IMG/VR virus record: IMGVR_UViG_3300021091_000246
Span: 1 to 32,742 of that record
Origin: a virus
Length of the DNA stretch: 32,742 nt
Reading direction: 5' to 3' (one strand)
Below the pieces are notes generated by a model that worked only from the letters and a program-made list of their open reading frames with translations, searched no databases and was not told the origin of the DNA. The position numbers and the translations under genes are program-made. Shown here one piece after another: positions 3,861-32,496 of this stretch (its first letter is position 1; every line of letters begins with the position of its first letter).

Positions 3861-4292
3861 TTAGTCCTCGGAGATCGTCATCGTGCCGGTTGCAAACTCT
3901 GGAATGATGAGATTCGAGACAGCGAGTGACGCCGTGAGCGCCCCCTTGTACAGAACTTTGCCAGCGCCCGTCGAGGCCGTGCCGACAGCGAAGTGCGAAA
4001 TTGTGTTGGTGCCACCCGTGCATTGAGGGAAGGTGATCGCGGCAGCGTTCGTGACGCTGTTATCCGTCACCGTCCATCCAGCATTCGAGCGAGCAACAGC
4101 GACCCGAGCGTAGCCCGTGTATGTGGCTTCGTTTGCGGTTTGGTTGCCAGCCTCGCCAACATCATCGGTATGTAGCGAAACGTAAAGATTCGTGTTTGGC
4201 GAAGTCGCCGCGTTATCGGCGAGATTCGCAATAGCTGTCGCTTGAAACACGAGTTTCATCAGATCGTTCTCGAACGTATTGCCCTTTGACAT
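3861..4292 (-). CDS. Gp80-like virion protein (often named phage tail fibre protein)
   Basis: This 143-residue protein starts MSKGNTFENDLMKLVF and continues with NLYVSLHTDDVGEAG and a YTGYARVAVAR segment. I recognise this pattern from small structural proteins found beside capsid and fibre genes in many siphoviruses, grouped as Gp80-like. The start is an ATG with GAGGAA about 6 bases upstream. The stop lies seven bases before the GTG of the giant fibre, so the two are probably co-translated. The Thr/Ser/Ala-rich sequence with alternating hydrophobic residues suggests a beta-sandwich virion component. It may be a head or fibre-attachment protein. The exact position in the particle is unknown, and the family name comes from memory rather than a search. 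Confidence 0.65.
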   Translation of the reverse strand: MSKGNTFENDLMKLVFQATAIANLADNAATSPNTNLYVSLHTDDVGEAGNQTANEATYTGYARVAVARSNAGWTVTDNSVTNAAAITFPQCTGGTNTISHFAVGTASTGAGKVLYKGALTASLAVSNLIIPEFATGTMTISED

Positions 4293-5831: not shown

Positions 5832-6497
5832 TTAGCCCGGCTGCCCGAGCACCTTTGCGGCTTGCGCCAAATAGTCAACAAGCCCGTCATCCTCGACAGC
5901 GACCTCTACCTCTGCGTCGCACAGAGTCGTAGTTTCGCCGAAGCCATACGCTGTGATCTGCTTGGCTTCTCTGCGAGAAAATCCTGCATCACGCAAGAAT
6001 CGCTCGAAATCTTTCGGCGTGTTGATGGCTTCAGCCTTCACGCCAGTAATTCTCGCTTCGGAATTTGCCGGAAATGTAACCGGCGATACTTCCCAAAGCT
6101 CTAAGTCTGTAAGCAAGCGAACGTCGTTCTGCTTGTCTACCTCGTAACTGCGGGTCGTGTAGCCAATCGAAAGACCGCTCAGAGCGCCGAGTTTGATAAG
6201 TTCGCGAGCCTCGCGACCGCGCTGCGTGTCTGCGAGTTGACCCTTGACGTAAAGTCCGCGCTCGTCTTCTCGAAGGTCAGTCCATACGCCTATTGGCTCT
6301 TCTTGGTCGTGCTGCCAAAGCATTGCTGGCATACGGCCTGTCGATTTCGCTTCCTCGATTGACTTAGCAAACGCGCCCTGTACAACGACATCGCTGTACG
6401 AATCCACGTTGCCAAACACAGAACCGTAACCCTCTATGGTTCCCTTTTCATCGACCGCCTTAATCTCGGCGATCACTTTCATTGTTTTTGTTTCCAT
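5832..6497 (-). CDS. Prohead maturation protease, HK97 U35/S78 type
   Basis: This 221-residue serine protease is expected to co-assemble inside the procapsid and cut the capsid delta domain. The family pattern is clear: an N-terminal GYGSVFGNVDSYSDVV strand, the His motif LWQHDQEEPIG, the Ser motif LSGLSIGY, and a conserved ELWEVSPVTFPAN stretch. His in the WQHD segment and Ser in GLSIG are the catalytic candidates. The reading frame is open further upstream, but that would overlap the portal gene. The ATG at 6497 has GAGGTAGG just upstream and begins after the portal stop. The C-terminal tail is acidic. Portal, protease and capsid are in the standard HK97 order. Confidence 0.95.
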   Translation of the reverse strand: METKTMKVIAEIKAVDEKGTIEGYGSVFGNVDSYSDVVVQGAFAKSIEEAKSTGRMPAMLWQHDQEEPIGVWTDLREDERGLYVKGQLADTQRGREARELIKLGALSGLSIGYTTRSYEVDKQNDVRLLTDLELWEVSPVTFPANSEARITGVKAEAINTPKDFERFLRDAGFSRREAKQITAYGFGETTTLCDAEVEVAVEDDGLVDYLAQAAKVLGQPG

Positions 6498-6507
6498 TTT
6501 TCCTACC

Positions 6508-7734
6508 TCATGCCGCGCTGTCTGGCGCGACGCTTGATTCCTGCGGATCAGCACTTGCTGGAGCCATGTTTAGCGGCTGCAAGTACACATCGCCCTCGGC
6601 GATTGGATTCATATCTTCAAGAGCGCGGATATCGTTGACAGACAGCCACCCCCAATTACGACCAATCGCGTATGAGTCGTAACGTGATTTGAGATCGCCG
6701 CGCAGCAACGCCTCCGGCGACAATTTCGAGAAGTAAGTACCCGGCGCAGTTATTAGATCGCGTAAAATTGACTGCTCCCAACGCGCCATCCAAGGGCCGA
6801 TGCAATGCGCGACGAAATCGAGGGATTGATGCTCGATATTGCTGAAGGTTGCTCGCGACAGATCACCGATCATGTGCGGAGGAACTCGGAACAGCCCTGC
6901 AATCTCTGAACGCTGAAACTGCCGCGTTTCCAGAAATTGCGAGTCGTCGTTCGAGAGTGACAGTCTCTCAATCGTCATTCCTTCTTCAAGGAGCGCAGTA
7001 CGTCTCGCGTTTGCGCTGCTGGAGTACGCAGAGTTCCAAGTTTCTTTCAGTCGCGATGCCGCCTCTGAAGAAAGTTTTTGCGGATGTTTGAGGATTACGC
7101 CGGGCGTCGCGTCGTTTCGATAGAAACGCCCTGCGTACTCTTGCGTCGCGTATGCAACGCCGATTGCTTCGCGCCCTGCTTCGATTACTCCCTGCGGCTG
7201 CACTCCGTCGCTCGTCCTGTAGCGAACGGTGAAGATATCCTCTGCGGGAATTGAGATTGTGACTCCGTTCTCGCGGCGTAACTCGTAGACGAGTTGCATA
7301 TCCGGTAACTGTTTGATGGTCAATCGATCAGGGTGGAGCGGTATCAACTCGTCTACGATATTCGAGGCGCGACTGCGCCAGTTGATGTACGCAAAACCGG
7401 CACCTCGCAATAGCGAGTGCTCGGTCAGCATTTCTCGGAACTCCTGCGCGGTCTGCCAAGAGTTTGGGCGGTCGTGCAATAGAATTTGCAACGGGTGATC
7501 TGCGGCTCGCTCGCGTCCGCCATCGGTTCTGCGGCGGTACATATTAAGTGGCATCTGACCGACGGTTTCTGCAATCACGCGGACACACGCATAAACAGCG
7601 GCGACACGCATGGCAGTTTTTTCGTTTACATGGACGCCAGAGGCGGAACTTGCGCCTTCAAGCCGAAGGGTTAGACGGTCGAGCGCCGTCTGTCCTGCGT
7701 TTTTGCGACGCAAGATTCGATCCAGTAGAGCCAC
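6508..7734 (-). CDS. Portal protein, HK97 family
   Basis: This 408-residue protein would form the dodecameric ring at one capsid vertex, through which DNA enters and to which the tail docks. Recognisable segments are VYACVRVIAETVGQMPLNMY near the N-terminus, FREMLTEHSLLRGAGFAYI, a DIFTVRYRTSDG strand, and the conserved helix-loop with FRVPPHMIGDLSRATFSNIEH near residue 290. The length fits the family. The start is GTG, with AAGAGG about five bases upstream. It lies between the large terminase and the protease with short gaps, so it is part of the leftward packaging/head operon. Confidence 0.96.
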   Translation of the reverse strand: MALLDRILRRKNAGQTALDRLTLRLEGASSASGVHVNEKTAMRVAAVYACVRVIAETVGQMPLNMYRRRTDGGRERAADHPLQILLHDRPNSWQTAQEFREMLTEHSLLRGAGFAYINWRSRASNIVDELIPLHPDRLTIKQLPDMQLVYELRRENGVTISIPAEDIFTVRYRTSDGVQPQGVIEAGREAIGVAYATQEYAGRFYRNDATPGVILKHPQKLSSEAASRLKETWNSAYSSSANARRTALLEEGMTIERLSLSNDDSQFLETRQFQRSEIAGLFRVPPHMIGDLSRATFSNIEHQSLDFVAHCIGPWMARWEQSILRDLITAPGTYFSKLSPEALLRGDLKSRYDSYAIGRNWGWLSVNDIRALEDMNPIAEGDVYLQPLNMAPASADPQESSVAPDSAA

Positions 7735-7743
7735 GGAAACCTC

Positions 7744-9285
7744 TTACAGAGTAATAATGCCGCGATCTTCGTAGACGCTCGGGCCGTTTACGGTCGGAGC
7801 CGCTTTCGCGGCTGCGCCTATCGCCATCGCCAGCGCGACCATTCCGTCGATACGTCCGGTCGCTTTTGCCTTGTCCAGTTTTCGATTCCCCGCTGCATCG
7901 CGGGTCGCGACAGCGTTTGCCGCGTTCCATGTCAACACCGGATGTCCGCCATGCAACACCCGGCCAGCCATCAATTCACCTTCGAGCGCATCGAGGGCGG
8001 GAGCCATGTCTTTGAATCCCTGCCCGAACTCGACCATAGGTAACTCGCGCCCCATCCGCCCGAGTTCAGTTTTGAATACATCCATTCGCCAGCGGTCGAA
8101 TGCCACGGCTGCAACATCGTAGTCGTCGCACATCGAGCATAGTTGCTCGGCGACTGTGGCGTAATCGACGCTTGCTCCCGGCGTTGCCACCAAAAGCCCA
8201 CGGTCTCTCCAAACGTCGTAAGGCGCACGATCCCTCGATGCTCGATCAGATATGCCGAGACTAGGCGCAAAGAAAGTCGGCTTGATGTGCCAAACGCCGT
8301 TCAAGTCACGCGCCACCGCGACCATTGCGGTCAAGTCATTTCTCGCCGAAAGGTCGAGTCCAATGTAAACCGTGTTTTCGTAAAACGCGGACTCGTCTGG
8401 CTCTGCGCTGTTTTGCAGCCAAATCGGTCTGGGTATGAACGGCGATGTCTGATCGACACGCTGGTTCAAGACCAAATTTCTATAAGAACTTTCTCGGCTT
8501 GGCATTCGCTTCGCCGCCGCTGCTTGCTCGCGCACCTCAGTCGGATTTAGAAAGTCGCCAAACGCCGGGTTCGCAGAGCGCATAGCTTGCTCGCTGAACG
8601 GGTCGATTGACTCGTCCGCCGAGAACATAAAGAGTTTTGTTTTCGGGTCTGCGCCGCTCTTCGCGTCGTCGATCAACACAGAAAGCAAGTCAGCGTCCGT
8701 CGGTGCTTGTGTCGAGATCACTATCGACAGCGGCTCGGCCTGTGCGCCGCTTGCTGTTTCGAGGGCATCGTACAGTTCGCTTCGCGGCCCCTTCACTTGT
8801 CCAAGTTCGTCGTGAACTGTGAAGACCGGCGACAATCCGTAAGCGGTCGAGGCTTCTGCTGACAGCGCCCGGTACAACGTCCCCAGTTCAGCGCAAAACA
8901 ACTGCTTGGCTGTATCTCGTGTGGCGACAACAGCGTTTAGATCGGGCGACATACGCACAATTTTTGCCGCAAGCGCAAACAAAAGCGCGGCCTGATCCCT
9001 AGACTGAGCGGCGGAGAACAACTGCGAATTTGCTCGCGCCTCGGGGCCGCATAAGTGCAGCAGCAAAAGAAACGCGCTGATCGAAGTCTTGCCGTTCTTC
9101 CGTCCGAAACTAACTATCGCCCGTCGCGTCGGGGTGTCGTAAATGCCCCGAATTATCGAGCGTTGCCACTCTCGCAGCCGAACCGGCTGCCCTACCATCG
9201 CGCCCTCGGGGACTCGACAGGTCGATTCAATCCACAGAATGTTGCGGTCGCCGCGAGCTATCTGGTCTAGCCCGTGAACTCCCAC
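7744..9285 (-). CDS. Large terminase subunit (packaging ATPase-nuclease)
   Basis: This 513-residue motor pumps DNA into the procapsid and cuts concatemers. The N-terminus has the usual ILWIESTCRVPEG...LREWQ lead-in. Walker A is at about residues 61-68 (GRKNGKTS) and Walker B at about 155-160 (FTVHDE). The RNase H-like nuclease begins near residue 308 with YIGLDLSARNDLT, whose Asp is a metal-ligand candidate. I place the start at the GTG at 9285, 19 bases inside the small-subunit gene. An ATG at 9438 would add 51 Arg/Asp-rich residues that only mirror the small subunit's other frame. No strong Shine-Dalgarno is visible, so translation is probably coupled to the upstream gene. Confidence 0.95.
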   Translation of the reverse strand: MGVHGLDQIARGDRNILWIESTCRVPEGAMVGQPVRLREWQRSIIRGIYDTPTRRAIVSFGRKNGKTSISAFLLLLHLCGPEARANSQLFSAAQSRDQAALLFALAAKIVRMSPDLNAVVATRDTAKQLFCAELGTLYRALSAEASTAYGLSPVFTVHDELGQVKGPRSELYDALETASGAQAEPLSIVISTQAPTDADLLSVLIDDAKSGADPKTKLFMFSADESIDPFSEQAMRSANPAFGDFLNPTEVREQAAAAKRMPSRESSYRNLVLNQRVDQTSPFIPRPIWLQNSAEPDESAFYENTVYIGLDLSARNDLTAMVAVARDLNGVWHIKPTFFAPSLGISDRASRDRAPYDVWRDRGLLVATPGASVDYATVAEQLCSMCDDYDVAAVAFDRWRMDVFKTELGRMGRELPMVEFGQGFKDMAPALDALEGELMAGRVLHGGHPVLTWNAANAVATRDAAGNRKLDKAKATGRIDGMVALAMAIGAAAKAAPTVNGPSVYEDRGIITL

Positions 9286-12471: not shown

Positions 12472-13297
12472 TTGACTTCTCCAGCCACGCCCTCGCCGCA
12501 GCGACGTTCGAGTCCTGCGCGTTCTGTGCCTTTGTCGTCGGAAGCGGCCACGGCTGCGCCCACGGTTTATCGGAATCGCCGAAAAACCTCGCGGGATTAA
12601 GAACCATTCGGTTCGTTACCGTGACCAGCCGAGCGTAACGCTCGACCCCTTCGTGGATTTCTCTCCAAGTCGAACCGTTCGCAATATGTCGCCGGATATG
12701 GTGCTCTGCGGTTATCCAATCCGTTCGGCCTGAGTTTGGCGGGTACTTAGCTTTCAGAGCCGAAAACTCAGCCTTCTCGTCGGGTTCTTCGCGTGTGCTT
12801 TTCGCGACAGGTAGCGAAGACATCACACATACGGGTTCATGTGAGGTTTCAGATAGGTTCTGGCTTTGGCTATGGCTATGGCTATGACTATGAGATGGCA
12901 TTGTTTCGGCAATGCCAATGGCATTGCGGTTCGGATGACCGTTCGTACTGTTTTCGTTATGCGAACTCCGCTCACTTCGCTTTGACCATCGACGATTGGC
13001 GAGCCGCCGATTGGTCTCCCGATTCTCTTCGCTTTTCGCAAGTTCTTGAGCGGCACGGGCGTTCGTCCAGCCCTCCTCTGACTTGATCCAAAACTCCTCA
13101 AGAATGCGCTTCAGAGCGTCGCGCTCTGCTTTAGAGACCGCGCCGACCATCCGGCACAGTTGAGTCATATCGAGAGGCAGCGGACGCTCAGTTGCATAGA
13201 ATCCATCGAGCAATGCTCGATACGCCCCGCGCTCCGTCAGCGACAGGTGGCCGGTGTCTCGCTGAAAGTCACCGATGAAGTGTTTGTAATAGATCAA
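12458..13297 (-). CDS. DUF1376 replication protein (O-like)
   Basis: This 279-residue protein begins LIYYKHFIGDFQRDTGHLSL followed by TERGAYRALLDGFYATERPLP, which is the DUF1376 domain (residues about 1-90), a winged-helix-like module found in phage replication initiators. After a charged linker comes a run of Ser-His pairs encoded by a hexanucleotide repeat. A C-terminal region follows (DWITAEHHIRRHIANGSTW...), like the second domain of O-type replication proteins. The TTG at 13297 is chosen because it sits at the domain boundary, overlaps the previous stop (TTGA) and has GGAGAAA upstream. The 19 codons before it belong to the overlapping frame. A role in origin binding is inferred. Confidence 0.85.
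   Translation of the reverse strand: MIYYKHFIGDFQRDTGHLSLTERGAYRALLDGFYATERPLPLDMTQLCRMVGAVSKAERDALKRILEEFWIKSEEGWTNARAAQELAKSEENRETNRRLANRRWSKRSERSSHNENSTNGHPNRNAIGIAETMPSHSHSHSHSQSQNLSETSHEPVCVMSSLPVAKSTREEPDEKAEFSALKAKYPPNSGRTDWITAEHHIRRHIANGSTWREIHEGVERYARLVTVTNRMVLNPARFFGDSDKPWAQPWPLPTTKAQNAQDSNVAAARAWLEKSSAAG
12862..12897 (-). repeat. Hexanucleotide tandem repeat encoding (Ser-His)n
   Basis: Six hexamers of the form GGCTAT, three of them exact and three with one or two changes, lie in tandem. On the coding strand they encode alternating Ser-His (SHSHSHSHSH followed by SQSQ) in the linker of the DUF1376 protein. Because the period is six, slippage would change linker length without breaking the frame. 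Confidence 0.85.
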
Positions 13298-19979: not shown

Positions 19980-20156
19980 TCACCGATCTCGCTTAATTAA
20001 AAGAAAGTGCCTGTACACAGCAAAAACCCCAGCCACAATCGCGACACATCCCGCGATCAGCGAAATGATTTCATTCGCGCTTGCGACCCAACTTGTCCCC
20101 GCTGCGGCGACAGAACCTACGGTTGCGACATCGGCCGCACTCTTTGGCGCACTCAT
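19980..20156 (-). CDS. Small membrane protein, second holin candidate
   Basis: This 58-residue protein begins MSAPKSAADVATVGSVAAAG and has one clear hydrophobic helix (IISLIAGCVAIVAGVFAVYRHF), plus a weaker one near the N-terminus (VATVGSVAAAGTSWVAS), ending LIKRDR. Two short helices and a basic end are like class II holins or antiholins. GAGGAG is eight bases upstream. The ATG overlaps the previous TGA, and the 3TM protein starts seven bases after its stop. It may work with that protein or control its timing. Confidence 0.65.
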   Translation of the reverse strand: MSAPKSAADVATVGSVAAAGTSWVASANEIISLIAGCVAIVAGVFAVYRHFLLIKRDR

Positions 20157-20374
20157 CCAGACGACTCCTCAATGCTGGTTGTTGTAATGTTTGCAATGTA
20201 CTGCGTGACTGTATTTTCTATCCTGTAGTAGCGAAGTTCCTGCGTTACAGGATTAAAGTTCTCTAAACTGACGACGGTGCATGGAAACCATGCGCCGCTT
20301 GTATCTCCCGGCTCTGACTGCGGTGAAGACTCGGGGCCGTGTTCACCCCAGCGAATAAACATTATTCTTTTCAT
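20153..20374 (-). CDS. Hypothetical small protein between tail tip and lysis genes
   Basis: This 73-residue protein starts MKRIMFIRWGEHGPESSPQS, followed by CTVVSLENFNPVTQELRYYRI and a Thr-rich tail. The ATG at 20374 shares one base with the TAA of the tail-tip gene; upstream in-frame codons lie within that gene. No domain is recognised. It is compact and may be a virion or tail accessory by position. Confidence 0.6.
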   Translation of the reverse strand: MKRIMFIRWGEHGPESSPQSEPGDTSGAWFPCTVVSLENFNPVTQELRYYRIENTVTQYIANITTTSIEESSG

Positions 20375-23300
20375 TAGCGAATACCCATCGCGAGAACGTC
20401 GCATCGAGCAAGCGCTGCTCTGTTGTTGATTTGAGCTCGAAGGCGTACTTGGTACGAGCGGCCGAGCGTTGTCGTCGATTCCGGTGCAAACAGAGTCACA
20501 CCGATCATGTCGTTAGCATCGAAGAACGTGCTCGTTAGCAGGGAATAGGTGCCGACTTGGCCGTTCGCGAGTCCGGCTCGGGTTCTCGTGTAAGTCGATG
20601 CGAGTGCGTCTTCAGAATAAACAAGAACTGTGGTTGCCGAACCGTTAAAAAAGACTGATGCGGCCGAGCCAGATTCGCCGTTGTTTCCTGTGACCGTATC
20701 GCTCGACTGAACGTCGATCTGTCCGGTGAAGACAAGGTTCCACCCAACTTGATAGGGAAACCCTAAATCGGGGTCATACTCGTACCAGATTTGTTGTGAG
20801 AGTGGGTTTCCGAGTGAAATTGTTGAAGGACTTGCGCTCGCCGATGTTCCGACAGGCGCGGAGTATAAGTAAACATAAACCAATGTGACGGCGTAAGCGA
20901 TGTCCTGCACGTTGACCTGAACAAATGGCTTATGACCGCTGGGGTGAGCGGACGCCGGAAGTTGCACGGTCAAAAACGGCATCTCAATCGTTGTGATTGC
21001 ACCGCCCGAGGTGTACCCCGTGACAAACTTCGTTACGTCACCGGACAACTTCTCTACGTTTAGCGATCCGATGTTTGCGCTTTGAATCACGCCATTTCCG
21101 ATTTGTGCAGACTGCGTGATGAGCGTCCCGGTGTCGAGTTTTGCTGCCGTGATTGATCCAGCGGATATCTTGTCGGCCGTGATCGCGTTCGACGCAATGT
21201 TTCCCGCGTTAATCGTGTTTGCGGCAATGCGGTCGCCAGTAATGCTCGATGCAGCAATTTTGTCGGCTGTGATTGCGCCAGCCGCAAGTTTCGCGGTCTC
21301 GATTGCCCCAGCCTGTATCTTGGCGGCCGAAATTGAGTCTGCGGCAATTTCCGATGCGGTCACAGCGCCAGCGGCAATTTTTGCTGTCGTGATGCTTCCC
21401 GCAGAAATGGCTCCAGCCGTAACTGAGTTTGCGGCCAGTTCATTTGCGGTGATCGCGCCAGCAGCAATTTTTGCCGTGGTAACGCTACCCGCAGAAATCG
21501 CACCGGCTGTGACGCTGTTGGCTTGTAGCGAACCGGCGCTTACAGAATTAGCCGCCAGTTCATTTGCGGTGACTGCGCCAGCGGCAAGTTTTGCTGTAGT
21601 AATAGCGCCCGACTGAATCTTTGCGGAGGTGATCGAGTTTGCGGCAATCTTGTCGGCGGTGACTGCATCGGCAGATAAAGTCGCCGTGGTAACACTACCA
21701 GCGGAAAGTTTCGCTGTTGAAACAGCGCCGTCCGTTATTTGTGTGCCTGTAATCTGCCCTGTCACCTTCGCCGCAGATATCGCAGCGACTTGACTATCGG
21801 CTAACTGGCCGGTGACCTTTACAGCCGCAACGTCGGCAATCTGAGAGTTTGCAAGTTGCCCAGTAACTTTCGCAGCGGCAATGTCCGCGATCTGAGCGTT
21901 TGTAAGTTGACCGGATACTTTTGTTGCCGCGACCGCTTCAATCTGCGAGTCTGACAACTGCCCGGTAATTTTTCCGGCTGCAATTCCAGCAATCTGAGCG
22001 TTTTGTATTTCCCCGCTAATATCTAGCGCAGGAACCGCCGTTGTCCACGCGGAGCCGGTGTATCGGTACAGTTTCGAGTCGGTGGTCAAAAAGACCATTC
22101 TTCCTTGAAACAGATTCGTAGACGGCAGCGTTGAGACGATCTCAAATCCAATTCTTGACTTAGAGATGGAAAAGTTTGCGGTGTATGTCTGCCCGTTGTA
22201 GGTCGCGTTGATTGTCAACGTGCCGGTATTCGCAGACATCGCGGTGATCCGGTAGTAGCCTTTCGGCTGCCCAGAAACAGGCACGTTGGCTGCCGTGTTT
22301 ACTGTTCCGGTGACGTTAACTCCCGACGATGAGAACGAAACCGCGCTCGAACTGCTGATATCGGAGGCGTTTGCGTAAAACTGTGCTCGTCCATCCGCAT
22401 CGTCAAAGTTAACAACTGTACCGTCTGCGAACGCTTGGACACCGATTGAACCGCGAGTTAATTGTAACGAAAGCGAATCGCCAGCGGGGCCATCTGCTCC
22501 CGCTTGTGACTTCGTGACTGAAAACACCTTCTCAACTGTAAAACTCCCGGCATAGGTCGCGACGAAAGTGGCGGTGCCAACGCTGGCAGACATCGCAGAC
22601 GCGGAATACCCGCCGGTTGTCGGGTTAATTGTCGCGGTAAGGTTACTTGATGCGGTAAGCGTAAAAGAGCATTGATTCGTGACTTCCGTCGTTCCGACGT
22701 ATACGCGGAAGAATCCGAAAGCGCCGTTGAATGACGTAACCGTGCCGACACTATCTGCGGGAACAACAAAGGAGTCGTTCGTAAGATAGCCGGTGAGTGT
22801 CGGCGGACGCGCAGCGGCAGAGAAAGAACTAGTGTTTGTGTTTGGGTAAAAGTCGGAGCGAATTCGTCCCTTGCGAGTGCGAATCCAGTAATACCGAGTC
22901 TGACTGCCGCTATAAACGTGCTTGAAGTCCGAGGCGTTGCCGTCGAAGACTTTGACGGAATCAGCGCGATTGTTTGTGCTCGATGCAAACAACTCGATTG
23001 CATCGAAGGAAGCCGGGTCTGCCGGTGGCGTCCACGAAATTAGATTGAACCCATCCTCGGCATTGATCGTCATCGCCGCGAGTGAGGGCGGCTTCTGCTC
23101 TTGATCAGCAACGGCCGCTTCGTCCGCTGGGACGTACTGAATCCGAAGCGCAGAACCGGCAAGCGAACGATTTGAAATGACCGCCGGGTCGGGAAAGCCA
23201 GCCCACGGGTCTTCGTTGTCGTCGTAACGATGAGCGCCTTCGTTGTCGAGAAAGGTTAAATATCCAAGATACGGCTGCGCGATGGGAACCGTGCCGGTGT

Positions 23301-25656
23301 TCGCAATAAAGCGATTCGTGAGGTCTGGCGGGGATACGCTTGACCCATCGAGCAACAGCAGGAACGCGCCGGGGCCACCCGCACCGCCAGCGCCGGGAAA
23401 ATACTTGTTTGGCAAAGGCCCGTGCATCGGCGGCATGACCGACGAGTTGCCCGAAAGATTGACTGTCGCTGACGCGCCCGTCGAAAAACCGCGAGACACC
23501 GTGTAGAGCCCTGCTCCACCAGCCGCGCCAGTACCACCCGAAGCTCTGAGATCGCGCTTATCACCGCTGGTAATGCTTCCGCCGGGGCCGCCGCCCGTCC
23601 CGCGCAAATCAGTCGGAATGCCAGAGAGCGTGATTCCACTCAACTTCAATTCTAAATAGGGGAAACTTGCGTGTTTGCCCTTCGTGACAGGCACCGGGCG
23701 CGTGATGAGTCTCGCGTTGCCTTCACGATAATCCTTCTGGGCGTCGATACCGTCCCAGCCGCGAGAGTTTCCGACAAAGCCCGGATTCCCGAGTGTGTCG
23801 GTTGTCGGACTGTTGTCGTCTGCAACACCGGGAAGTCCGCCGCCTATGCCATTGATTGCACCGTTGATCGTCAAATATCCCTTTACGCGCAGTTGCACGT
23901 TGCCGGTGATATTGATCGTACAGCCCTGCGGGATCGTCAGATCGTCGTTGTGGTACCAAATCGAGGCTGCGGCGGTTATGTCTGTAGTGCCATTCAGGGT
24001 GTAAGTTCCCGCTGCCATCACTCCATTCGTGATAGTCGCGACGCTCGATAGCGGTGTCCCGATTGCGGTGTAGAACGCATCGGGGAGAACAGTCTGTGCG
24101 GTTGTGGGTGACAACGCGGACGCCGGGGCCGTCGAGCCGAACAGTTCAAGTTGAACTTGTCCGGTGCGATGGTTCACCGACATATTCTGAATTTCAAACG
24201 AGCGGTCAATGCTCGCGCCGCTTCCCGAAAAGTCGCGGACGGTTGCGTAGTTGACGCGAACAACGTCGCCTATTTCTAGTCTATTCAGGGAGTGCAGAAC
24301 AGACACAGAGAGCCGTTGGGGCGGCGCGGCATAACGGTCGCGCACCGCATCAATCAATGTGAAAATCAGCGAATCAGTTGCTTTGCCGCCGTATAAACCT
24401 TTGAACTTGAGTTCCAGCGGATCAGCGCGGCCGTGTACCGAGGCCGACGTTGCGTCGATCAGGGTCGTCGTTCTTGTGTATTCTTTCCCGTTCCAATTCC
24501 ACGAAATGCGAAAGACATTGTGCAACTCGTCCATATCGTGAACGAGTTCGCCTACTTGGGTTGAGTTGCTCTCGTCCAAAGTTGCGACTGACGCGGCGTC
24601 CATAAGAACACGCGCCGAACGCTTTAGACCCAATGCGCCGTCGGAATAGACAGGCATAAAGAGGCCAACAAGTCGGCAGATTTCTTCTTCGAGAAACTTC
24701 TTTCCGTCTGTTTTTTTCAATCCTTCAAATCTGAGCGCGACGCCATCGTCTGCGCCATTCCAAATATCAACACCTATTCCCGTGAAGTCCGAAAGACGAA
24801 TAAGGTTTGGATTGATACCAAGGTGCCATGTCGAAGGGAAAGTGGCGTTGTCGCCGAATAGCGTGCCGGTTAGGATTGCGTAGGCGAGTTTGACAGCGGG
24901 AAGTTCTAGATAAATGTGCTCTGTGACCTTTTCACGCCTTGACGCGGCGACGGCTGCATCAACATCGTACTTGCTTGCGATGGTGCCGAGGACGCCTCGC
25001 GTACATCCGGTGAATGCGACGTTGGTTTTTCCGGTATAGCGAATGATTTCGTCACGAATCTTGATGTACCCAACCGTGGCGTTTGCCGCGTCCGAGTAAC
25101 TCGCGCCGTGGTAGACGGTTGAAAATCCGGTCGTTGAGGTGACAGGAATCGTGGTGTCTGTCGCAGATATTGATTGCGCGAGCGTAGTTTCCGCGAGTTC
25201 AAATATCTCTTTTTTTGCCGAACGCTGAATGTCCGCACAACGAATTGAGTATCTTCCTTTGTCGAAACTTGCCTCTACGACTTTTTGCGTTCCGATAAGA
25301 ACGAAGTCGGCAAACGCGAACCCGGCGTAGCCCATGTAAAAACGGACTTGACGATCTCGAAGACCCTCGTCGTCGTTAAGGCGCTCGCGGATTTCATCGG
25401 TGATCGACGCGCCAAGGTCTACAACGGCAAATGCCGCAGAGCCGATCTCGCTGCGCCCATCAATAGGATTGAGGCGCTGGGATACGATGTTTGGCTCTTG
25501 CAACGCGCCGTAGATGACGGTGCCGCCGATTCCTGTAGTGTCGGAATGGCTTGTGATGTACAGAGAATCGACCGGGTACTCAATCTTGACGACGAAGCGC
25601 GGCTCTTTAACTTGACTCCTGTTAGCGGCATCGAAAGCGGCTGGATCAGTCCGCAT
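20374..25656 (-). CDS. Tail-tip / central fibre protein (J-like), 1760 residues
   Basis: This very long protein follows tape measure and a distal-tail-like protein, the place of J-type tip proteins. From the N-terminus it shows a baseplate-hub-like region with beta-strand patches (residues 1 to about 520). A Gly-rich part (about 590-760) follows with GGG, GGTGAAGGAG and FPGAGGAGGPG runs like a polyglycine shaft. Next come an FN3-like segment (NLISWTPPADPASFDAIEL) and two Ig-like segments (about 900-1150). Then come five 17-residue repeats and twenty 10-residue repeats, and a terminal beta-rich domain. I infer a trimeric tail-tip fibre that docks to the tail hub and contacts the host. Confidence 0.87.
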   Translation of the reverse strand: MRTDPAAFDAANRSQVKEPRFVVKIEYPVDSLYITSHSDTTGIGGTVIYGALQEPNIVSQRLNPIDGRSEIGSAAFAVVDLGASITDEIRERLNDDEGLRDRQVRFYMGYAGFAFADFVLIGTQKVVEASFDKGRYSIRCADIQRSAKKEIFELAETTLAQSISATDTTIPVTSTTGFSTVYHGASYSDAANATVGYIKIRDEIIRYTGKTNVAFTGCTRGVLGTIASKYDVDAAVAASRREKVTEHIYLELPAVKLAYAILTGTLFGDNATFPSTWHLGINPNLIRLSDFTGIGVDIWNGADDGVALRFEGLKKTDGKKFLEEEICRLVGLFMPVYSDGALGLKRSARVLMDAASVATLDESNSTQVGELVHDMDELHNVFRISWNWNGKEYTRTTTLIDATSASVHGRADPLELKFKGLYGGKATDSLIFTLIDAVRDRYAAPPQRLSVSVLHSLNRLEIGDVVRVNYATVRDFSGSGASIDRSFEIQNMSVNHRTGQVQLELFGSTAPASALSPTTAQTVLPDAFYTAIGTPLSSVATITNGVMAAGTYTLNGTTDITAAASIWYHNDDLTIPQGCTINITGNVQLRVKGYLTINGAINGIGGGLPGVADDNSPTTDTLGNPGFVGNSRGWDGIDAQKDYREGNARLITRPVPVTKGKHASFPYLELKLSGITLSGIPTDLRGTGGGPGGSITSGDKRDLRASGGTGAAGGAGLYTVSRGFSTGASATVNLSGNSSVMPPMHGPLPNKYFPGAGGAGGPGAFLLLLDGSSVSPPDLTNRFIANTGTVPIAQPYLGYLTFLDNEGAHRYDDNEDPWAGFPDPAVISNRSLAGSALRIQYVPADEAAVADQEQKPPSLAAMTINAEDGFNLISWTPPADPASFDAIELFASSTNNRADSVKVFDGNASDFKHVYSGSQTRYYWIRTRKGRIRSDFYPNTNTSSFSAAARPPTLTGYLTNDSFVVPADSVGTVTSFNGAFGFFRVYVGTTEVTNQCSFTLTASSNLTATINPTTGGYSASAMSASVGTATFVATYAGSFTVEKVFSVTKSQAGADGPAGDSLSLQLTRGSIGVQAFADGTVVNFDDADGRAQFYANASDISSSSAVSFSSSGVNVTGTVNTAANVPVSGQPKGYYRITAMSANTGTLTINATYNGQTYTANFSISKSRIGFEIVSTLPSTNLFQGRMVFLTTDSKLYRYTGSAWTTAVPALDISGEIQNAQIAGIAAGKITGQLSDSQIEAVAATKVSGQLTNAQIADIAAAKVTGQLANSQIADVAAVKVTGQLADSQVAAISAAKVTGQITGTQITDGAVSTAKLSAGSVTTATLSADAVTADKIAANSITSAKIQSGAITTAKLAAGAVTANELAANSVSAGSLQANSVTAGAISAGSVTTAKIAAGAITANELAANSVTAGAISAGSITTAKIAAGAVTASEIAADSISAAKIQAGAIETAKLAAGAITADKIAASSITGDRIAANTINAGNIASNAITADKISAGSITAAKLDTGTLITQSAQIGNGVIQSANIGSLNVEKLSGDVTKFVTGYTSGGAITTIEMPFLTVQLPASAHPSGHKPFVQVNVQDIAYAVTLVYVYLYSAPVGTSASASPSTISLGNPLSQQIWYEYDPDLGFPYQVGWNLVFTGQIDVQSSDTVTGNNGESGSAASVFFNGSATTVLVYSEDALASTYTRTRAGLANGQVGTYSLLTSTFFDANDMIGVTLFAPESTTTLGRSYQVRLRAQINNRAALARCDVLAMGIR
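21130..21729 (-). repeat. Twenty 10-residue repeats in the tail-tip protein
   Basis: Exactly 20 units in register follow the pattern G/N-[SA]-[IV]-T-x-x-x-[IL]-x-A (for example GAITTAKLAA). Units 5-12 also form a higher-order repeat, in which TANELAANSVTAGAISAGS recurs. Such fibre repeats typically form a trimeric beta-helix or coiled shaft. Unit count is a natural length variable. Confidence 0.85.
21763..22017 (-). repeat. Five 17-residue repeats in the tail-tip protein
   Basis: Units follow the form TGQL-x-[DN]-[SA]-Q-I-x-x-[IV]-A-A-x-K-V, for example TGQLANSQIADVAAVKV. They lie directly before the 10-residue repeats, separated by an 11-residue junction that begins like a sixth unit. Confidence 0.85.
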
Positions 25657-29937: not shown

Positions 29938-30263
29938 TACGAGAAACGCTCAACGCAGAGCAGTTGCAACTCGATATTTCTTTCTTCGACATTGATCACA
30001 GACTGAATGTCGAAGTACCTAGAGCCAAACTTGACACGATCTTTCGGAGAAATTGACTGTCCTACAATCGGCCGAATCGTGATTCGGGTTGAGGTCTGTC
30101 CCTGTGTCTGCTGCGCGGCAAACAACTCGCGGCCGTTTAGCGGCTCGACCGCAGCCCAAACCGTCGCGAGGTTGGCCCAGCTTTTTGTTTGATCACCGTA
30201 TTGATCGATGGCGTCCGTCGCTCGTTGAACGACAACGCGATGTCGAAGCCTACCGGGACGCAT
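29937..30263 (-). CDS. Head-tail adaptor / head closure protein
   Basis: This 108-residue protein begins MRPGRLRHRVVVQRATDAID and continues TKSWANLATVWAAVEPLNGR, QTSTRITIRP and DRVKFGSRYFDIQSVINVEE. This is the pattern of SPP1 gp16/HK97 gp7-like stoppers: a small beta-barrel that closes the portal channel after packaging. Neighbours on both sides are connector and gp10-type genes. Confidence 0.9.
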   Translation of the reverse strand: MRPGRLRHRVVVQRATDAIDQYGDQTKSWANLATVWAAVEPLNGRELFAAQQTQGQTSTRITIRPIVGQSISPKDRVKFGSRYFDIQSVINVEERNIELQLLCVERFS

Positions 30264-30868
30264 CAGAACACCTTAAACGGCGTCAACAGCGCGGCAAAAC
30301 CAAGCGGGAATTCTGTCTTGAGAGACTTTGAATAGTTAAAGGGGTCGGAGGCTGCCGACTCGCGGTTCTCGTAAAGGTGCGCCGTCATCAATTTAATAGC
30401 GGCCTTCACACCCATCGGCACATCCGTCGGCGCGCCGTAGCCAGCAACGTAACGAACCCGAACGTCGTCGGTGTATCCGCGAGCAGACGGCCATCCGACC
30501 CCAAACGCCGGGACAATGCGTCCCGGCTGCGAGTACGGCCCGGTGTCCGCGATCACTAAGTAGTTGTTTGCAGAAAGCGTTTGAGTTGCGTTGTTCCCGT
30601 CGATGTAAGTGATGTAACTCACGCTCAAGAGCGGAGCCTTGTCGATAAAAAGGCTCGGGAACGCGGATTCTGGAAACTGGTTAATTCGAGTCTCCCATGT
30701 CGTACTCACAAACGAGCGGCCGGTGTAAAACTCGGCCGTCTCGCGAGCGGTGCGCGTCAAAATGTACAGCAGTTCGTCGTCGTAATTGCCGTCAATGCGG
30801 CAATGAGCGCGAGCCTCTTCAACTGTGACCGGCTCTGCGGCCGGTGCTGTGATTAAAAGTTGAGTCAT
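30263..30868 (-). CDS. Head-tail connector (gp6/gp15-type)
   Basis: This 201-residue protein (PAAEPVTVEEARAHCRIDGN, DDELLYILTRTARETAEFY, TGRSFVSTTWETRINQFP) is the HK97 gp6/SPP1 gp15-like connector that forms a ring under the portal. Features are the E-A-HCRI-D opening, the E-x-x-TGR motif and the DVRVRYVAGYG then PMGVKAAIKLMTAHLYENRE helix. Length fits. Confidence 0.92.
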   Translation of the reverse strand: MTQLLITAPAAEPVTVEEARAHCRIDGNYDDELLYILTRTARETAEFYTGRSFVSTTWETRINQFPESAFPSLFIDKAPLLSVSYITYIDGNNATQTLSANNYLVIADTGPYSQPGRIVPAFGVGWPSARGYTDDVRVRYVAGYGAPTDVPMGVKAAIKLMTAHLYENRESAASDPFNYSKSLKTEFPLGFAALLTPFKVF

Positions 30869-31137
30869 AGCTGGCGCACCTGAACCAAAACCGAGCGATC
30901 TTCAATTCGACCGCCGGGAGTGGTAATTCGATTTGTGATCGTGTAGTCGGTTCCCGCAACGCCGCCGGTTAGGAATGCTCGGGTCACATTGGAAGTGACG
31001 CCTTCGCTTTGAAGCGTGAAAGCCGCCGGTATTTCCCATGACGAACCGGTCACGGTGTCGTTGACTAGGAATTGATTCCAATCAATCGCGAAGTCAATCG
31101 TGCTGTTTGGGTCTTTCGTAAAAGCCGCGATTATCAT
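30865..31137 (-). CDS. Fibre-tail adaptor-like protein (Gp77-like)
   Basis: This 90-residue protein has FTKDPNSTIDFAIDWNQFL, SSWEIPAAFTLQSEGV, then AFLTGGVAGTDYTITNRITT and GGRIEDRSVLVQV. I recognise this as the protein annotated phage fiber-tail adaptor. It has a beta-sandwich with a Gly-rich loop. The ATGA overlap with the upstream repeat protein and the adjacent connector put it at the head-tail junction or fibre base. The family name is from memory. Confidence 0.68.
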   Translation of the reverse strand: MIIAAFTKDPNSTIDFAIDWNQFLVNDTVTGSSWEIPAAFTLQSEGVTSNVTRAFLTGGVAGTDYTITNRITTPGGRIEDRSVLVQVRQL

Positions 31138-32255
31138 GCAGCCACTCTCCTATTGTTTGTCCCGGCGCTTGCCGTCGAGCGAGGCTCAACCTCGACCGAA
31201 CGATCCATTTCGCCTCGGAAATCAATCTGCGCTCTCGGATCGACCACCACCATGCGCGGCCGGAACGACACGCCGAGAATTCTCGACTGTGCCGTGTACG
31301 TCTTAAATCTGCCCGTCGCGGTCGCGCTCGATGTCGCTGTCGCCGTACCCGGCGAGGAAATCTTGACTTGGCCGCTTGCCGCCGTTTCTGCAAAGCCAAG
31401 CAACGCAACGGTCGGTCGTCCTCGACCTTGCGTGACGCCCTCGACGTTCGCGGTTCCGGCCTCGGCTCCGTCAATCTGGCCGCGTCCGCGACCGTCTGCG
31501 GAGACGCTTGTCGAGCCTTGCAAAGCGCCATCAACGAGGCCAAAGCCGCGTATTTCGACGATGCTGGAGGCCGCCCCAATCGCGCCTCCGTCCGTTCTGC
31601 CGACGCCTTGAATCGCGGCGCTTGCAGATGCCGAAACCGACAGGTCAACTCGCATCGACAGGCGCGTTCTGCCGGTCGCATCGGTGATTGATGCTGAATC
31701 CGACGAGGCAGCGCATCGGCCAAAACCGCGCCCGTCTGAATTCGCCGCAGCAACGCCAAGACTTGCAGCAGAAAGCGCGGATCGCGCTCTGCCGACTGCC
31801 GAAACAAGCCCTTCGGTAGAGACATGGCCGGTCGTCATTCCGCGACCGTGTGCGTCCGCCTCTACGGTGGTCGCCGCGCTGATCGAGCCGTTTACAGGCC
31901 CGTGGCCAAGTATTATGGCGCTCGTCGTCGTTACACCGAGCGAGTCTCCATCGACCGCTCCGATTCCAAATACCGCCCCGGTCGAAACCGAGGAAGCCGC
32001 CAACGTGCCGGTCGCCGCAGCCCGTCCGCGAAGGTTTGCCGTACCCGCAGAGACGCCTGTTGCACTCGCGTTAATACGGCCGTCGGCTTGAACCGTTGCT
32101 GCAACGGTGGCGACACCGACGGTAGTGCCAGAGGCCGAAATCCTCGGCCGCATCGTCCCGGTAACAAAAGACGAAGCGACAGCGGAACCGTGGGCGGTGT
32201 CACCTACGGCATAGCCGAAGAGCCAGTAATCACTCTGGACGAATAGGCCGCTCAT
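31134..32255 (-). CDS. 20-residue-repeat structural protein (undescribed fibre type?)
   Basis: This 373-residue protein has a short opening (MSGLFVQSDYWLFGYAVGDT). Residues about 57-296 hold 12 tandem units, most of them 20 residues, each opening with a G-x-G or similar turn. The C-terminal region starts near residue 324 (SRILGVSFRPRMVVVDPRAQ) and ends with an acidic/basic strand. It is poor in aromatic and Cys residues and rich in Ala, Ser, Thr and Gly, which fits a long beta-solenoid or trimeric shaft. GGGGGA lies just before the ATG. I recognise no named family for the repeat. The overlap with the Gp77-like gene suggests that it is the fibre that adaptor carries; that is inference. Confidence 0.75.
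   Translation of the reverse strand: MSGLFVQSDYWLFGYAVGDTAHGSAVASSFVTGTMRPRISASGTTVGVATVAATVQADGRINASATGVSAGTANLRGRAAATGTLAASSVSTGAVFGIGAVDGDSLGVTTTSAIILGHGPVNGSISAATTVEADAHGRGMTTGHVSTEGLVSAVGRARSALSAASLGVAAANSDGRGFGRCAASSDSASITDATGRTRLSMRVDLSVSASASAAIQGVGRTDGGAIGAASSIVEIRGFGLVDGALQGSTSVSADGRGRGQIDGAEAGTANVEGVTQGRGRPTVALLGFAETAASGQVKISSPGTATATSSATATGRFKTYTAQSRILGVSFRPRMVVVDPRAQIDFRGEMDRSVEVEPRSTASAGTNNRRVAA
31368..32087 (-). repeat. Twelve tandem units of about 20 residues
   Basis: Units begin at residues 57, 77, 97, 117, 137, 155, 175, 195, 217, 237, 257 and 277. All are 20 residues except one of 18 and one of 22. A consensus is G-x-G-x-[VTI]-[DN]-G-x-[LIV]-x-[AG]-x-[ST]-x-[VA]-x-A-x-x-[RH]; an example is GFGLVDGALQGSTSVSADGR. 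Confidence 0.85.
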
Positions 32256-32298: not shown

Positions 32299-32469
32299 TT
32301 ACGGAGCCTGATCAGCCCCGTGCTCGCTTTGCTGTGCTGCAATCTGCGGCTGCGCTTGCTGCTGCATCTTGCTAATCAGACCAGCCACCATTTCAAACGG
32401 CTGCTTTGCGAGCGCCGCCATCATTAAGTTGGCTTCTTCCGTCGTCATTTCAAACTTCAACGTACTCAT
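32299..32469 (-). CDS. Small hypothetical protein, 56 residues
   Basis: This protein begins MSTLKFEMTTEEANLMMAAL, followed by AKQPFEMVAGLISKMQQQ and a Gln/Ala-rich tail. It is similar in kind to small helical phage proteins with a TTEEAN-like opening that sit among fibre genes. GGGAG lies nine bases before the ATG. It may be a chaperone or accessory to the repeat protein downstream. No function is known. Confidence 0.65.
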   Translation of the reverse strand: MSTLKFEMTTEEANLMMAALAKQPFEMVAGLISKMQQQAQPQIAAQQSEHGADQAP

Positions 32470-32496
32470 CAAAATAAACTCCCGCTATGGGTAAAA

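Follow-up and report, generated by a model that had tools for sequence, protein, structure and literature searches.

Host range in phages depends largely on the fibre genes, the annotation of which is poor. One described module that resembles the locus analysed here is that of the Ralstonia podophage GP4 (PDB 8JOU), the phage to which 8jou chain D belongs and after which PF23148 is labelled (Gp77, 'Podophage GP4 fiber-tail adaptor protein'). A second is found in LSH1, where gp34, gp35 and gp36 (a payload, a GP4-like fibril and an Ig-fold protein) were proposed as one subassembly, the similarity to 8JOU chain g having led the authors to infer a module of Ig protein, fibril and payload (PMC13243795). 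It is gp35 that matches this chain, and a counterpart of the repeat shaft discussed below is not described for LSH1 (PMC13243795). The Gp80-family sequence 8jou_a occurs as ten chains, so that chain g is probably Gp80. Also comparable are the Lessievirus and Ittyvirus proteins BcepIL02 gp56, JC1 gp54 and Itty13 QRE00591, which are encoded directly upstream of Gp77; in Burkholderia phage BcepIL02, gp55-gp56-gp57 follow the order Gp80-like, R-tailed repeat protein, Gp77, and all three are annotated as virion-associated. The repeat protein gene of BcepMigl (gp57) is separated from Gp77 by a pectin-lyase-like gene. The Microcystis phage Mae-JY04 likewise has a Gp80-like gene, then a 20–22-residue R-tailed repeat protein (WWT39678.1), then Gp77.

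The locus described here lies in a viral DNA stretch of 32,742 bases, the whole of which is referred to as the window, and its centre is a 373-residue repeat protein with an ATG start (Table 1). The open reading frame given in the preliminary description exists and is encoded by the minus strand; reading the plus strand from 31134 runs into stops. Its stop shares four bases (31134–31137) with the start of the Gp77-like gene, so the overlap claimed earlier holds, as does the adjacent small protein, which has 56 residues from an ATG or 57 from a TTG and gave no match in family searches. Beyond the Gp77-like gene follow genes for a head-tail adaptor, head closure, neck, tail terminator, tail tube, chaperone and tape measure, and the phage is therefore most likely a siphophage, whereas GP4 is a podophage.

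Table 1. Features of the repeat-protein locus and its fibre module, in window coordinates.
Feature	Position	Strand	Basis
Repeat protein gene	31134..32255	-	ORF reading; conserved in 21 IMG/VR loci
N-terminal cap, residues 1-22, MSGLFVQSDYWLFGYAVGDTAH, DYWxxGYAxGD motif	32190..32255	-	near-invariant in relatives; dN/dS 0.09
Array, fourteen 20-residue units, residues 23-302	31350..32189	-	self-match lags, unit count, phase model
Partial 15th unit, residues 303-315	31311..31349	-	unit count
R-tail, residues 316-373, degenerate R-x-x-x-V-x-x-E-x motif, ends NNRRVAA	31137..31310	-	R-tail profile E=2.3e-15 (family's own tails in training set)
Gp77-like fibre-tail adaptor, 90 aa	30865..31137	-	Pfam PF23148, E=1.8e-22; 8jou chain D, E=5.6e-4
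Head-tail adaptor / gp6-like connector	30263..30868	-	PHROG 442 E=6.3e-30; PF05135
Small upstream protein, 56-57 aa, conserved	32299..32472	-	64% identical to equivalent in relative L005
Gp80-like protein (GP4 fiber I family PF23140)	3861..4292	-	Pfam E=7.1e-21; same order on relatives' single contigs
Large fibre of 1284 aa or more, its C-terminal S74 chaperone truncated at the contig end	3..3854	-	PF13884 E=5.6e-6

As in GP4, Gp80-like and Gp77-like genes flank the module. The left end of the window carries, on the same strand, the capsid gene, an 82-residue ORF, the Gp80-like gene and the large S74 fibre gene. In relatives the order is capsid, Gp80-like, S74 fibre, small genes, repeat protein, Gp77 and head-tail adaptor, an order that recalls the GP4 fibre module; on contig G001, for example, the capsid (21367–22584), Gp80-like (20100–20528) and Gp77 (12963–13229) genes are all on the minus strand, with an S74 fibre gene of 1378 codons between the latter two. 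Since this order is found on single contigs, the window represents a permuted or broken view of a capsid-to-adaptor arrangement, and the suggestion in the preliminary description that the repeat gene is part of a fibre module is supported, this module lying next to the head-tail adaptor gene. The first 180 residues of the S74 fibre are 72% identical to those of the L005 fibre and its middle has diverged strongly, a pattern consistent with diversification of receptor binding.

The preliminary description had noted a regular 20-residue repeat in twelve units. The regularity was confirmed, with a lag-20 self-identity of z=5.9 against full shuffles (8–12 in relatives) and z=3.9 against shuffles preserving the odd/even alternation of strands, and with zero register slip across residues 21–313 in a phase-tracking model; the count has to be raised to 14 complete units, which make up 75% of the protein, plus a partial fifteenth. 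The strongest self-match lags are 60, 100, 20 and 40, and the unit approximates G-x-x-x-G-x-A-x-V-x-A-x-G-R-G-R-G-x-x-x. The units are old and diverged, their mean pairwise identity being 22% for amino acids and 37% for DNA; a search for DNA repeats here gave just a short 6-base array, tandem repeats of 60 bases being absent.

Searches of Pfam, PHROG and PDB gave no family match for the repeat protein (0 PHROG hits, so that phrog_19041 too was unmatched), in agreement with the earlier failure to recognise a named family. The best Pfam match, EipA (E=0.55), is a chance hit, and what the repeat profile matched in PDB (9lc0, E=0.002; ribosomal eL29) was judged a chance resemblance between periodic or low-complexity sequences rather than homology. 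Neither the repeat protein nor the cap/repeat and R-tail profiles matched any 8JOU chain, and tblastn of cultured phages with the window protein, its cap and its tail returned nothing convincing. AlphaFold gave all-beta monomers of low confidence, the window protein reaching pLDDT 41 and a relative 53; in the window model a strand recurs roughly every 10 residues. A fold search gave no match at E <= 0.001. We suspect that each unit contributes two strands of about 10 residues to an elongated, probably oligomeric beta rod, which may be a solenoid or a trimer, the two forms named in the preliminary description.

The 21 IMG/VR relatives hold about 22 units each, 20 of them encoding 513 residues and one 517–521 depending on the start chosen. 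In all 21, cap and tail are conserved and Gp77 is the next gene. The window protein is 140 residues, or 7 units, shorter than the 513-residue form, and the alignment of the 517-residue member contains two gaps of exactly 20 columns each, so that the length-tunable unit predicted earlier is matched by whole-unit differences between related phages. Since 20 relatives are all of one length, the number of units looks stable within the close clade and would vary only over deeper time; register analysis found a single-residue slip, one per relative examined. Between the window and its relatives, identity is about 80% for Gp77 and 70–75% for the capsid, and 34–38% for the repeat protein. In eight relatives dN/dS is 0.09 for the cap, 0.23 for the R-tail and 0.38 for the array, showing that the gene is a real coding sequence under purifying selection that is strongest on the cap, then the tail, and weakest in the array. 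No prophage relatives were present in the genome collection, and a profile scan added no further members. The repeat protein is thus a real, conserved and unannotated phage protein, and most likely a fibre shaft. It could alternatively be a head or neck decoration protein rather than an extended fibre, given that the module sits between capsid and connector genes and that the Burkholderia counterpart family, phrog_19041 (BcepMigl gp57 and Itty13 QRE00591), is filed under head and packaging. However, whole-unit length variation suits a rod and the names of the nearby GP4-family proteins mark them as components of fibres, and we regard a decoration protein as improbable.

The preliminary description did not mention the two ends of the protein, the aromatic N-terminal cap (SDYWLFGYAVGD) with its conserved DYWxxGYAxGD motif and the arginine tail. 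In the window protein this tail is a degenerate form of R-x-x-x-V-x-x-E-x, and the repeat protein is the sole significant ORF in the window for an R-tail profile (E=2.3e-15), the training set of which contained the family's own tails. The Lessievirus and Ittyvirus proteins share a C-terminal R-x-x-x-V tail and, in the Burkholderia phages, repeats of 20–22 residues; they differ in having another N-terminus (YALNxTPINGWAT in the Burkholderia phages) and a looser period. When the window family profile was compared with these Burkholderia and Pseudomonas phage proteins using hhalign, the C-terminal region alone aligned, at 9.7% probability, and these cases may therefore be analogous. Mae-JY04 WWT39678.1 differs in its unrelated N-terminal region of about 230 residues ahead of the repeats.

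A DNA pattern for the Gp77 motif gave at least 80 Gp77 loci. Among the matches listed, the gene directly upstream of Gp77 had a strong 20–24-residue period in 50 of 68 non-redundant cases, as did 14 of the 569 other genes (Fisher p about 5e-46, a descriptive value because the loci lack phylogenetic independence). When half of the set was used for training and the other half for testing, the R-tail profile recovered 117 of 204 held-out tails (57%) against 20 of 3414 background sequences (0.6%) among the matches listed, and it did not match shuffled tails. On these results the window protein, which lies directly upstream of Gp77 and has both a C-terminal R-tail and a period within 20–24 residues, belongs to a class defined in this analysis, the R-tailed Gp77 partners, which is widespread and for the most part lacks annotation. 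No natural fusion of shaft and Gp77 was found among the at least 80 loci listed, and three long N-terminal extensions look like out-of-frame readings. Separately, of the 349 residues of phrog_4137 only the C-terminal end (257–348) matches the Gp77-like protein of the window, a hint that Gp77 may in nature be fused to something encoded upstream. In Gordonia phage Moosehead, gp28 (6273–7781 of its locus) lies downstream of Gp77 and has an arginine-rich N-terminal segment followed by 24-residue repeats; a reversed arrangement is possible there, the R-tail profile being non-significant.

Because the same pairing recurs in many different phages, the repeat protein is probably an unnamed, length-variable fibre part. 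Our preferred reading, held with reasonable though incomplete confidence, is that it forms a shaft component of the siphophage virion within a GP4-type, neck-proximal fibre module made up of the Gp80-like piece, the large S74 fibre, the repeat shaft and the Gp77-like adaptor. The R-tail would dock on Gp77 near the head-tail junction, the cap and array would extend outward to, or alongside, the receptor-binding fibres, and gain or loss of units would set their reach. Among the matches listed, Gp77 partners carry varied N-terminal caps (e.g. YGTGxYG, FSQxPF), and because the tail is constant where N-terminal parts vary, it is the likeliest adaptor-binding element. The same shaft might instead be mounted with its cap towards the virion and its R-tail distal, gripping the S74 fibre or the Gp80-like piece; phage fibres usually attach via the N-terminus and the cap is the most conserved part of the protein, but the N-terminus varies freely among Gp77 partners while the R-tail tracks Gp77, and we consider this polarity unlikely. 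The coupling of tail and Gp77 suggests a modular docking peptide. We propose, tentatively and at somewhat short of an even chance, an undescribed attachment rule wherein Gp77 receives a short arginine nonapeptide tail fitted to many beta-repeat shafts and caps, a plug-in system operating in podophages and siphophages. In practice, probable fibre shafts of many environmental phages could be recognised and named by simple means, namely the tail motif together with a register-locked repeat beside Gp77.

The fibre role put forward in the preliminary description agrees with the genomic module and the coupling to Gp77. A further alternative, which we judge very improbable, is that the protein helps to assemble the adjacent fibres without itself entering the virion; proteins with long beta repeats are not typical chaperones, and the virion-associated annotation of BcepIL02 gp56 also argues against such a role. 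What speaks for it, and against a fibre, is that virion proteomics of JC1 detected the Gp80-like gp53 and the Gp77-like gp55, with the repeat protein gp54 absent from the list (PMC9144972).

With a DNA pattern for the cap, many loci were recovered, and nearly all of those listed encode the cap together with a period of exactly 20; the best lag was 20 in 44 of 62 of the listed proteins and 40 or 60 in 16 more. The window protein, with the cap inside its first 20 residues and a 20-residue period, belongs to this DYW-cap family. Among its listed members, most have a tryptophan motif at the C-terminus, and for these the contig DNA covered contains no Gp77. All 11 complete R-tailed members listed have Gp77, in contrast to the W-tailed ones, which lack both R-tail and Gp77. 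The W-tailed IMG/VR proteins thus share the DYWxxGYAxGD cap and the exact 20-residue period and differ in the tryptophan motif that replaces the R-tail. They form a large family in environmental phages (L029–L108; e.g. L097, 7509–8429), and two members tested had no significant PHROG assignment. In named records, W-tailed relatives sit near stabilisation-protein or tail-collar genes. They are labelled as a HERC6 E3 ligase (gp51 of Methylophilales phage Venkman, which resembles the family in array and tail and is without the cap) or as serine-rich adhesin, so that probable misannotations as E3 ubiquitin ligase and serine-rich adhesins are exposed in this sister family. Elsewhere in the window, direct DNA repeats, mostly at 90-base spacing, occur at 21143–21692, inside a 1760-residue tail fibre gene (20374–25656).
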